Shown here: one piece after another, positions 56,667-60,256 of the stretch | Numbering within the stretch: position 1 is the stretch's first letter | How the letters are laid out: every line of letters starts with the position of its first letter | NCBI RefSeq assembly: GCF_026385525.1 | Contig: NZ_JANIDY010000001.1 | Span: 372,001 to 436,000 of the forward strand | From: Bombella pluederhausensis | Lineage (GTDB): Bacteria > Pseudomonadota > Alphaproteobacteria > Acetobacterales > Acetobacteraceae | Direction of reading: 5' to 3' | Length of the DNA stretch: 64,000 nucleotides | Program-made: the position numbers and the translations under genes | The notes under the pieces: generated by a model | Databases searched by the model: none | The model's input: only the letters and a program-made list of their open reading frames with translations | Told to the model about the DNA's origin: nothing

Positions 56667-56703
56667 AGCCGGATCAGTCCTTGGTGGGACTGTCCGGCTT
56701 TTT
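56667..56703 (+). terminator. Intrinsic terminator of gshB
   Basis: AGCCGGA (56667-56673) with TCCGGCT (56693-56699) and CAGTCC (56675-56680) with GGACTG (56687-56692) form a 13-bp stem with one bulge, followed by a T-run. The same bases encode the last residues of the convergent small protein, so the hairpin is shared with coding sequence. Confidence 0.8.
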
Positions 56704-56964
56704 GCTGTCATGGGGGGTATCATCTGGCTGGGTGGGGTCTTCTTCCTGTTCCTGCTCAGGGGGAGGGGGATAGAGATTTTCCCGGAAGGGAATGGGCACT
56801 CCGTCCTGAAAATAACCATTTTCGATCTTTCCCTTTTTAGGGGGCTTATCTCGCGTAAAACGGTTTATAAGCCAGGGTATTAGATCGTCTTTGAAATAGA
56901 TGACGTAGAGCGCTATCCAGATGAACAGGCAGAGAAGGGCCAGTATGATATCAAGGGTCTTCAT
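56674..56964 (-). CDS. Small single-span membrane protein, acidic/proline-rich tail
   Basis: 96 residues; no family recognised. ATG 56964 has AGGA about 8 bases upstream. One N-terminal TM segment (IILALLCLFIWIALYVIYF, about 6-24) is followed by a short basic stretch (RFTRDKPPKKGK) and then a Pro/Glu/Asp-rich tail (PPPPEQEQEEDPTQPDDTP). The positive charges after the span suggest the tail is cytoplasmic. Divergent from pmtA; the 3' end lies in the gshB terminator. Confidence 0.55.
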   Translation of the reverse strand: MKTLDIILALLCLFIWIALYVIYFKDDLIPWLINRFTRDKPPKKGKIENGYFQDGVPIPFRENLYPPPPEQEQEEDPTQPDDTPHDSKKPDSPTKD

Positions 56965-57147
56965 CACATAATCCTGATATGAGTTCTGGTTCTGTATATG
57001 ACAGGTAAACCAAATTTTTTCGCATAATATCGTCTCGATACCTTGTCAGCCAAGGGCGTTGGAAGGCAAGAAAGGGGCGGACTGATTGGTATCAGTGGCG
57101 ATAATGCTCCCCGCTTGTTGGGGGCAGACAGTTGAGGCTGCGTTTTC

Positions 57148-57804
57148 ATGGTGTCTTCCCTTAAACCCCGTTCTTCTCTTGATGCTGATAGCGTGCGTGA
57201 GGCGTACCGCCGCTGGGCGCGCATGTATGATAAGGTTTTTGGTGGTGTATCCGCCTTCGGGCGGCGGCGGGCTGTAGCAGCAGTTAATGCTCTGCCGGGG
57301 GAACGTGTGCTGGAGGTCGGGGTCGGTACGGGGCTCGCTCTGCCGTCCTACGCAGCTAATAAGCGCATCACTGGAATCGATCTTTCGGAAGATATGCTGG
57401 CCCTTGCACGGGAGCGTGTAAAGCGTGATGGCCTGCGTAACATAGATGAACTTATGGTGATGGACGCCGAGAATACGAGCTTTGCCGATAACAGTTTCGA
57501 CATTGCTGTCGGCATGTTCGTGGCGTCTGTTGTGCCGCACCCAGACCTGTTGCTGGCGGAGCTGAAGCGGGTGGTCAAACCGGGCGGGCACATTCTTTTC
57601 GTCAACCATTTCCTTGCTCCCGGCGGTATCCGCCTGAAGGTGGAGAAGGTCATGGCCCGTGCCTCCCGTGCTCTGGGCTGGCACCCTGACTTCGCTATTG
57701 AATCCCTTCTGCCCCCCGAAGATATGGCCCGTGCGACCATCACACCCGTGCCGCCTGCCGGGCTGTTCACCCTCGTGACATTGCCGCACGAGAAGACTAA
57801 GTAA
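57148..57804 (+). CDS. pmtA: Phosphatidylethanolamine N-methyltransferase (PmtA type)
   Basis: SAM-dependent class I methyltransferase (218 aa) that can convert phosphatidylethanolamine to phosphatidylcholine. SAM motif I is VLEVGVGTGLALPSY (about 52-66), then ITGIDLSEDMLALARERV (acidic post I) and VKPGGHILFVNHF. The VGTGLALPSY sequence is typical of the Rhodobacter-type PmtA group. No TM segments, so it binds membranes peripherally. CdsA in this window supplies phospholipid precursors. It may also be a methyltransferase for another lipid; PC content would decide. Confidence 0.85.
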   Translation: MVSSLKPRSSLDADSVREAYRRWARMYDKVFGGVSAFGRRRAVAAVNALPGERVLEVGVGTGLALPSYAANKRITGIDLSEDMLALARERVKRDGLRNIDELMVMDAENTSFADNSFDIAVGMFVASVVPHPDLLLAELKRVVKPGGHILFVNHFLAPGGIRLKVEKVMARASRALGWHPDFAIESLLPPEDMARATITPVPPAGLFTLVTLPHEKTK

Positions 57805-57868: not shown

Positions 57869-59113
57869 GTGACTTCAGGGCCGTTATTTCAGACAGTATC
57901 CTCATCACACCGTGGTGGTAGTGGTGGGGCGTTTTTTCTGCTGGCATTGTTTGCCGGTATGCTGGGCGGCGTCATGGGGCTGCCTTTCCTGCATGTGCAT
58001 CCCTCTGCGGGTGTTATAGTCTCTCATGCCGTGCTGATGACGTTTTATGTCGTCTGCCCTGCTTTTCTGGGAGGGATGGCGCAGTGGTTCCTGCCGGAAT
58101 TGCTGAAAGGCGAGGGCATGGCCCTGCCGTCTGCGGCCCGCATCGGTTTCGGCGTACTGGCAGTTGGGGCGTTTCTTCTGCCGGTTATGCCGTTTATCGG
58201 TCTGGCTCTCTGGAGTGTCGGCGTACTGGCTCTGGCTTTTAACGTGCTGGCCACGGTGCTGGAGATGCGGACCATTCCATTCCGTGAGTTTCCGCCGCTG
58301 GTCTGGGCCTTTTTGGCCAATGCCCTTTCCATGCTCGTCATTGCGCCGGTTCTTCTGGCTTTTCTGCTGCGGAGCGGGATGGCTGGTGGTGGTGCGGAAG
58401 CCCTGCTGACGGTTCTGCGTGGCAGCGTGGAAATGACCCTGCTAAGCGTGCCGTCACTCGGTATTATCATGGCGGCTCTCCTGCCACGGCAGACGGGGCA
58501 GGGATGGGTGTCCCGTTGTGCTCCTTATGCCTTTGGTCTCATGGGGCTGGTGCCCGTCCTGTTCTGGGCTGATCATCTGTTTGGTGAGCTGTCTTCATCT
58601 GCTTATAAGGCTGGGCTGACGGTAGGGCTGGTTCTGCCCTGTCTGGCTCTGTTGGTGGCTTTTGCCAGAGACCTCTGGCGTGCGGCTCTGCCATCCGGCC
58701 CTGCGGCGGGCTGGGCGTCTGGTGGGCTGGTTCTGCTGCTCTCTGGCTGGGCGGCCATGCTGACGGAACCGCTCTGGGCACCGCAGTCTGCACAGCCGGG
58801 CGCCTTCATGCTGGGAGCAGCAGGGCATCAGCTCGTGATGTTTGGCAGTCTCCTTGCCCTGAGTGCGGCCTTCTATGGCTGGTGTGGCAGTCGGCTGGTT
58901 TCGCAGGGGCGTGCTTTTGCCCTGTTCAGCATGGCTCATGCGCTGGTGACATTTGCGGGGGCGCTCTGTTCCGTCCTGCCGCAGCTGGTTCTGCCTGCCG
59001 CCCTGTTGATGGGCACCAGCCTGCTCATGTTTGCCCTGCCAGCCGGGTTGGTGTGGTATGGTATGCTCGTTGAACGGACCCAAGGGGTAACGGGACTTCT
59101 TCGTAAACAGTAA
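57869..59113 (+). CDS. Heme-copper oxidase subunit I-like membrane protein lacking the binuclear centre
   Basis: 414-residue, about 12-span protein with COX1 pattern. SHAVLMTFYVVCPAFLGGMAQWFLP (52-76) matches the COX1 low-spin heme His helix and GG..NWFVP loop. GSVEMTLLSVPSLGII (185-200) matches GHPEVYILILPGFGII, but the CuB His is S186 and the cross-linked Tyr is T190. WADHLFG (233-239) matches WAHHMF with the first His as D235. GAAGHQLVMFG (316-326) keeps the low-spin His (H320), while the heme a3 His is A318. Spacing between these points (49 and 82 residues) agrees with COX1 (50 and 85). GTG start. ctaB follows after 12 bases. Confidence 0.75.
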   Translation: MTSGPLFQTVSSSHRGGSGGAFFLLALFAGMLGGVMGLPFLHVHPSAGVIVSHAVLMTFYVVCPAFLGGMAQWFLPELLKGEGMALPSAARIGFGVLAVGAFLLPVMPFIGLALWSVGVLALAFNVLATVLEMRTIPFREFPPLVWAFLANALSMLVIAPVLLAFLLRSGMAGGGAEALLTVLRGSVEMTLLSVPSLGIIMAALLPRQTGQGWVSRCAPYAFGLMGLVPVLFWADHLFGELSSSAYKAGLTVGLVLPCLALLVAFARDLWRAALPSGPAAGWASGGLVLLLSGWAAMLTEPLWAPQSAQPGAFMLGAAGHQLVMFGSLLALSAAFYGWCGSRLVSQGRAFALFSMAHALVTFAGALCSVLPQLVLPAALLMGTSLLMFALPAGLVWYGMLVERTQGVTGLLRKQ

Positions 59114-59125
59114 GGCGTTTTTTCC

Positions 59126-60091
59126 ATGCAGGCATCATCTGGTCTTTCAGCGTCTCCACTGGCACGATTCCTCGGTACGCTGCGTATGGAAGGGCATGAT
59201 GGTGATGCTGCTCTGCAGGACTGGATCGCCCTGCTGAAGCCACGGGTGATCTCACTGGTGGTCTTTACCGGACTTGCTGGCATGGCTGTGGCCCCGAAAT
59301 GGCCGTCTGTTCCAGTCGGGCTGGTCATCATTGCCTGTATCTGTGTTGGAGCTGGTGCGGCGGGTGCCATCAATATGTGGTACGACCGTGACATCGATGC
59401 GATCATGAAGCGTACTCGTGTCCGCCCCGTACCCGGTGGACGGGTGGAGCCGATCAGTGCGCTGGTTTATGCGGTCGTGTTGTCTGTGGCGTCCGTCATT
59501 CTGCTCTGGCTGGCGACCAATCTGCTGGCAGCGGGTATTCTGGCTTTTTCGATCTTCTTTTATGGTGTGATCTACACCATGTGGCTCAAGCGCAGCACAC
59601 CGCAGAATATCGTGATTGGCGGGGCTGCCGGGGCTTTCCCTCCCATGATTGGCTGGGCAGCAACGATGGGGTCGCTGGATGTGCTGCCGGTCGTGATGTT
59701 CGCCATCGTCTTTCTGTGGACGCCCCCGCATTTCTGGTCGCTCTCACTCTATGCCTGCAAGGATTATGAGAGCGCCGGTATCCCCATGCTGCCGGTCGTG
59801 AAGGGGGCACGCCATACACGCTGGCAGATTGTTATTTACACCTTCATTCTGGGGGCTGTGTCTCTCGTGCCGAGCATGGTGGGGCAGTGCGGCTGGTTCT
59901 ATACGGTCTGCGCCAGCCTGCTGGACCTTGGCTTCATCTATTACGGGCTGCGGGTTCTGTTCGACAAACAGGATGAAAAAGGGAACAGCCTGACGAAGGA
60001 CAAACCGGCCCGTCATGCGTTCCGCTATTCACTGGCCTATCTGTTCTTCCTTTTCTGCGGCCTTCTGATTGACAGGGTTCTTCTGGCATGA
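59126..60091 (+). CDS. ctaB: Protoheme IX farnesyltransferase (heme O synthase)
   Basis: UbiA-superfamily membrane enzyme (321 aa) that farnesylates heme b to heme O for terminal oxidases. The first Asp-rich motif is NMWYDRDIDAIMKRTRVRP (about 85-103), with TPQNIVIGGAAGAFPPMIGW and WTPPHFWSL also conserved. It has about nine spans. It lies between a degenerate COX1-like gene and a 36-aa membrane peptide, an arrangement like the ctaD-ctaB-coxF part of aa3 operons. ctaG, ctaE and ctaC are absent. Its product is likely used by a bo3-type oxidase encoded elsewhere; this is inference. Confidence 0.95.
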   Translation: MQASSGLSASPLARFLGTLRMEGHDGDAALQDWIALLKPRVISLVVFTGLAGMAVAPKWPSVPVGLVIIACICVGAGAAGAINMWYDRDIDAIMKRTRVRPVPGGRVEPISALVYAVVLSVASVILLWLATNLLAAGILAFSIFFYGVIYTMWLKRSTPQNIVIGGAAGAFPPMIGWAATMGSLDVLPVVMFAIVFLWTPPHFWSLSLYACKDYESAGIPMLPVVKGARHTRWQIVIYTFILGAVSLVPSMVGQCGWFYTVCASLLDLGFIYYGLRVLFDKQDEKGNSLTKDKPARHAFRYSLAYLFFLFCGLLIDRVLLA

Positions 60092-60198
60092 GCGATCATA
60101 ATATTCCGTCCCGCCGTCAGGGCCGTCTTCTGGGCATTGTCTTCGGCCTGTCTTTCTTCACGCTGGCCCTGTTCGTGGTGGCCTTGTACCGGCTCTGA
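60088..60198 (+). CDS. 36-residue single-span peptide (CoxF-like position)
   Basis: ATG 60088 overlaps the ctaB stop as ATGA. The peptide begins MSDHNIPSRRQGRLLGIVFG and ends VVALYRL: a short, charged N-terminus and one TM helix (about 14-34). In alphaproteobacterial cta operons a small one-span protein (CoxF-like) follows ctaB. It is short for that family, and the similarity is only in position and topology. A strong terminator follows. Confidence 0.6.
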   Translation: MSDHNIPSRRQGRLLGIVFGLSFFTLALFVVALYRL

Positions 60199-60220: not shown

Positions 60221-60256
60221 AAAACCCCGCTTTCCTAATGGAGAGCGGGGTTTTTT
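60221..60256. terminator. Bidirectional intrinsic terminator
   Basis: AAAACCCCGCT (60221-60231) / AGCGGGGTTTT (60244-60254), loop 12 bases, with T6 on the plus strand and an A-rich left flank. It separates the ctaB unit (+) from the Tim44-like gene (-). Confidence 0.88.

Follow-up and report, generated by a model that had tools for sequence, protein, structure and literature searches.

One of the closest described systems is a COX1-like protein of Acetobacter encoded next to ctaB, which the available text of Degli Esposti 2023 (PMC10715153) calls 'deranged' and describes as having lost all conserved cofactor-binding residues. The same text (PMC10715153) proposes a structural role for CtaB and refers to Matsutani 2014 (its reference 13). 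According to the accessible part of PMC6915089, ctaB of A. pasteurianus is functional, and in the accessible part of PMC5112900 Bombella intestini is described as carrying bc1 and cytochrome c genes and reportedly no cytochrome c oxidase genes.

We analyzed a DNA stretch of 64,000 nucleotides from Bombella pluederhausensis (contig NZ_JANIDY010000001.1, positions 372,001 to 436,000), referred to below as the window. It contains a diverged ctaD gene, here called COX1-like, in one unit with ctaB and a gene for a small single-span peptide (Table 1). The COX1-like gene starts with GTG and is separated from ctaB by 12 bases. The hairpin at the end of the unit was not reported by the pattern scan, and a Tim44-domain gene lies downstream of the unit on the opposite strand. 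Like the small ORF behind ctaB in canonical operons, the peptide of 36 aa has a basic stretch and one span; we take CoxF-type to be the name for this ORF in COX operons. In the longer COX1-like stretches, the COX1-like gene is immediately preceded by the methyltransferase gene, the product of which resembles phospholipid N-methyltransferase PmtA. Relatives of the 97-aa protein listed in Table 1, for which no Pfam or NCBIfam match was found, sit between gshB and the methyltransferase gene in many acetic-acid bacteria.

Table 1. Features of the COX1-like locus (positions are those of the window).
Feature	Coordinates	Strand	Remarks
97-aa single-span protein	56674-56967	-	acidic, Pro-rich tail
Methyltransferase gene, upstream of the COX1-like gene	57148-57804	+	PmtA-like, 4.4e-46, below model cut-off
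COX1-like (diverged ctaD) protein, 414 aa	57869..59113	+	~12 long helices in model
H53 codon, first low-spin haem axial ligand position	58025..58027	+	invariant 102/102; 20 or more synonymous codon changes
G185-T190, former CuB His / cross-linked Tyr motif (canonical COX1: HPEVY)	58421..58438	+	
D235-H236, former CuB HH pair	58571..58576	+	
A318, former haem a3 axial His	58820..58822	+	
H320 codon, second low-spin haem axial ligand position	58826..58828	+	invariant 101/101; 14 or more synonymous codon changes
ctaB, heme O synthase (protohaem IX farnesyltransferase)	59126..60091	+	TIGR01473, 3.4e-98, above cut-off
Single-span peptide of 36 aa, a shorter version of the canonical post-ctaB small ORF	60088..60198	+	start overlaps ctaB stop
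Terminator-like hairpin	60225..60256	+	11-pair stem, TAAT loop, six T; ends the unit; seen directly in the sequence

The first set, drawn from 60 genomes within the same family (21 genera and K. xylinus), comprised 59 different COX1-like proteins. It was assembled from a group of relatives, from the matches listed in an even draw of 249 family genomes, from 26 chosen genomes and from one named record, and may miss lower-scoring COX1-like copies, as the G150 copy initially was. Further named genomes among the relatives are Kozakia baliensis (G032) and Gluconacetobacter diazotrophicus (G276), both assigned through plasmid identity, and Asaia bogorensis (G181). The second set covered Acetobacter, the genus of G201; by plasmid identity, G201 is A. 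ascendens and G302 is A. oryzoeni. The COX1-like gene is present in 47 of the 49 Acetobacter genomes, the two without it being reduced genomes (1.5 and 1.7 Mb). The combined set holds 102 distinct rows from 104 genomes, and the frame is intact, as far as the contigs reach, in 103 of these. The sole broken copy, in the Acetobacter genome G303 (L323), consists of three frames; as this assembly is 86% complete, the break may be real or an artefact. Fragments (L018, L022, L026), a duplicate protein (L079) and the broken G303 copy were excluded before the counts; in the G019 row the contig breaks off before H320, so that H320 counts include one row fewer. The G019 row was also taken out before the COX1 trees were built. 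The ctaB tree was made after 23 loci had been set aside as near-copies, as fragments or as lying at contig ends, and the alignment used for the profile and the fold prediction (A2) had 40 rows. One record titled as an Asaia bogorensis MAG (CAMCDA010000103.1, L178) differs from G181 in having a canonical COX1 and a CtaB with 60% identity, and is probably mislabelled.

Profile search and structure prediction gave full-length homology to COX1 and a 12-helix COX1 fold. The predicted model superposes on COX1 and has about 12 long helices, in agreement with the COX1 likeness and the roughly 12 spans that the first-pass annotation had read from the sequence. Descent from CyoB was ruled out, as the profile favours aa3 COX1 (3e-76, versus about 1e-36 for CyoB). 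The sole PF00115 match in the window genome is a 690-aa CyoB-type protein that possesses all ligands. In canonical relatives a full ctaD occupies the same place ahead of ctaB, and the order ctaD, ctaB, small peptide is found there too, which supports the earlier suggestion of a repurposed aa3 locus. The COX1-like proteins form one group in the COX1 tree, which carries a long-branch warning; in the ctaB tree two changes are required to account for the COX1-like label, with a single clade not rejected (p-AU 0.193). A second COX1-like group (L165-L167 and L078; genomes G089, G104, G212 and G164) stands beside the canonical G119 in the ctaB tree. This group perhaps decayed independently and retained the same two His residues, one origin not being rejected.

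The oxygen-reducing centre has been lost. At the CuB and Tyr positions the window protein has G185, T190, D235 and H236 in the alignment, and the former haem a3 axial position is A318; the altered CuB and high-spin positions noticed earlier are thus confirmed. None of the fully tabulated rows contains the helix VI His or the cross-linked Tyr; His is still found at the two positions of the former CuB HH pair in 28 and 10 of the 102 rows, and at the haem a3 position in 2 of the 102. At position -20 from Trp338, where the haem a3 ligand used to be, 46 of 58 rows have A, D, G or Q. The five lost-ligand positions rank 144-307 in conservation among the 360 columns of the first set, and each has undergone 12-20 changes on a tree of 58 rows. 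None of the 59 rows has the propionate Arg pair of the XI-XII loop (58 are gapped there and one has other residues), and thus haem affinity may be low. Judged from these residues, the COX1-like protein is not an oxidase, and oxygen reductase activity would not be expected because the ligands are absent. No Cox11/CtaG match was found in any of the 26 non-canonical genomes (19 with the COX1-like gene, including the window genome), whereas both canonical genomes tested (G016 and G020) gave one; therefore, the CuB loading factor is missing along with the CuB site. We read the gene as an ancestral aa3 cytochrome c oxidase ctaD from which the oxygen-reducing centre and the XI-XII loop with its propionate arginines have disappeared.

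The two low-spin haem ligand positions, H53 and H320, which we take to be H94 and H413 of Paracoccus, remain invariant while the lost-ligand positions vary, a pattern for which the first-pass annotation had proposed a check. His occupies them in 59 of 59 and 58 of 58 rows of the first set, where 6 of 360 columns are invariant. Both are kept in all 46 intact Acetobacter copies, at a median pairwise identity of only 37%. In the combined set His is found at H53 in 102 of 102 and at H320 in 101 of 101 rows (one row ends early), four of the 367 columns being invariant (H53, W146, W233, H320); no orthologue examined had either His replaced. When the ligand columns of a canonical COX1 profile were masked, the profile, which was too distant, aligned His at H53 in 49 of the 50 placed rows. 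The same overly distant profile gapped helix X in 38 of 59 rows and aligned His at H320 in 14 of the 21 placed. Therefore, we used ungapped spacing from separate anchors, Pro76 (-23) for H53 and Trp338 (-18) for H320, and obtained His in 59/59 and 58/58 rows, respectively, and in 46/46 Acetobacter copies at each position. On the tree of 58 rows, which spans 54 changes per site, H53 and H320 show no change, the median column shows 15, and 7 of 352 columns show none. Their codons flipped between CAT and CAC at least 20 (H53) and at least 14 (H320) times with no replacement. This pattern points to strict selection on the two low-spin haem His residues, and the gene probably still works as a haem protein. 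As aligned here, the sequences, those of Acetobacter included, contradict the printed loss of all cofactor ligands. The gene and its link to ctaB were known; we found no report of the conserved low-spin His pair, or of strict selection on the low-spin haem site, in the open-licence literature.

The COX1-like protein is under purifying selection. The dN/dS test that had been proposed gave medians in six groups of 0.12-0.38, well below 1, versus 0.04-0.16 for ctaB; by this measure, rough as dS is often saturated, the COX1-like gene evolves 2.3-3 times faster than ctaB. The fast evolution, the lost or scrambled CuB, a3, Tyr and RR positions and the one broken copy among 104 are what a functionless, slowly decaying pseudogene would produce, and Matsutani 2014 is said to have read the gene as one of accumulated mutations. 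This explanation is strongly contradicted by the 103 intact frames, by at least 34 synonymous and no replacement changes at the two His codons and by dN/dS values well below 1, and it is scarcely credible. The earlier argument that random decay was unlikely is upheld by the same frames and codon changes.

The association with ctaB is constant. A ctaB gene lies within the fetched stretch at all 59 COX1-like loci with a continuing contig and at all 47 Acetobacter loci (three genomes are shared), and the order gshB, methyltransferase, COX1-like, ctaB, Tim44 gene is seen in most of the longer stretches. By pattern, the small peptide follows ctaB at 58 of 59 COX1-like, 31 of 34 canonical and one of four loci without COX1. 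Among 45 chosen genomes, ten lack a CtaB above the cut-off, some of them incomplete assemblies, and none of these ten has a COX1-like match. One CtaB-less genome (G114) still has a large oxidase-type protein. A PF00115 search of five CtaB-less genomes gave no match in two and only a protein of 785-833 aa in three, with no CyoB-type protein. These three (G063, G149, G099) are small genomes without a CtaB over the cut-off, and the size of their PF00115 proteins is presumably that of quinol nitric oxide reductase. A role in supplying haem to the quinol oxidase is suggested by the constant company of CtaB and the small peptide and by the lack of the COX1-like gene in the CtaB-less genomes that were examined.

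CtaB is not always in need of the COX1-like protein: in G011 (L161) both the COX1-like gene and the small peptide are lost, while ctaB is kept along with two complete genes for oxidase subunit I, and in G110 and G083 ctaB has no adjoining COX1-like gene. The G011 CtaB is on a long branch of the ctaB tree. Together with G011, the reported function of A. pasteurianus ctaB, in work that is said to have used expression in E. coli, argues against an obligate role of the COX1-like protein for CtaB; its faster evolution by dN/dS is also odd for a tight CtaB partner. The protein could instead be a structural relic that only stabilises CtaB or another membrane complex, haem being kept because the COX1 fold needs it for assembly. 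Its link to ctaB, the fast change of the sequence outside the haem site and the structural role for CtaB proposed in the available text of PMC10715153 would all fit, but that printed version presumes that no cofactor ligands are left, which the 102-row alignment contradicts, and G011 keeps ctaB without the COX1-like protein. We regard such a relic as rather unlikely.

With respect to the cofactor, a CtaA match was found in 18 of 44 genomes, and the genomes with the COX1-like gene are divided into 16 with and 18 without a match (of 34). Thus, haem A is not general, and in the latter genomes the haem would be B or O. The window genome has no CtaA match, which makes haem A unlikely in this organism. 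SURF1 was rejected as a remaining partner, since none of the 26 genomes searched, of which 19 carry the COX1-like gene, gave a match (canonical relatives lie outside this test). In the accessible part of a review (PMC9145763), Surf1 of Paracoccus is described as a suggested modulator of haem A synthase and a suggested store of haem A. This suggestion, and the lack of a SURF1 match in those 26 genomes, are in line with a haem-dependent regulator, in which haem occupancy of the COX1-like protein would switch the activity or stability of CtaB. Such a regulator would have the same anatomy as our best explanation, but no signalling domain was recognised, and we hold it to be quite improbable.

Haem binding is the best reading for a 12-helix protein that has a single conserved bis-His site and carries out no oxygen chemistry; the invariance of the ligands makes a selected low-spin haem protein, whatever its role, highly probable. 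Buried bis-His sites are typical of electron-transfer cytochromes, which favours a single-haem cytochrome b that would pass electrons from quinol, or from an orphan bc1/cytochrome c branch, to an unknown acceptor. The bc1 and cytochrome c genes of Bombella intestini, described without cytochrome c oxidase genes in the accessible part of PMC5112900, would suit such a carrier. Against it stand the single haem, the lost RR loop and the failure to recognise an acceptor gene in the gene block, and we find it improbable.

Our best explanation, with a probability of about 0.5, is that the COX1-like protein is a maintained non-oxidase membrane haem protein that acts as a partner of CtaB and the small peptide; the CtaB-partner role taken on its own is tentative, falling somewhat short of even odds. 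Selection would maintain a 12-helix membrane protein with one low-spin bis-His haem between helices II and X, and this protein most likely stayed as a membrane partner of CtaB, with the small CoxF-type peptide. Its haem would be haem B or haem O fresh from synthesis, which it may hold, hand on or report during supply to the bo3/ba3 quinol oxidase. It is possible, if doubtful, that selection turned a heme-copper oxidase subunit I into a partner of CtaB dedicated to haem handling, the low-spin site serving as haem receptacle in a CtaB/COX1-like/CoxF membrane complex that supplies the quinol oxidase. If true, the oxidase is gone but the low-spin haem site of its COX1 persists. A COX1 scaffold reduced to its low-spin haem site would be a natural experiment, and a low-spin-haem-only protein beside CtaB would make haem hand-over testable in food bacteria that are easy to handle.

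Compared with subunit I of A1-type cytochrome c oxidases (ctaD/COX1; Paracoccus 1ar1, Rhodobacter 2gsm), the COX1-like protein shares the two low-spin His residues and the 12-helix fold, whereas it is ~100 residues shorter and has not kept the CuB ligands, the haem a3 His, the cross-linked Tyr and the propionate RR loop. CyoB, subunit I of the bo3/ba3 quinol oxidases, belongs to the same superfamily but is catalytic and has all ligands. Surf1, a haem-binding oxidase assembly factor, is a possible analogue as a membrane haem holder acting after CtaB/CtaA. It is a protein unrelated to the COX1-like one. Finally, the published 'deranged' COX1-like gene is the same gene, located beside ctaB in acetic-acid bacteria; its ligands were said to be all lost, whereas here both low-spin His residues are found in 46 of 46 intact Acetobacter copies.
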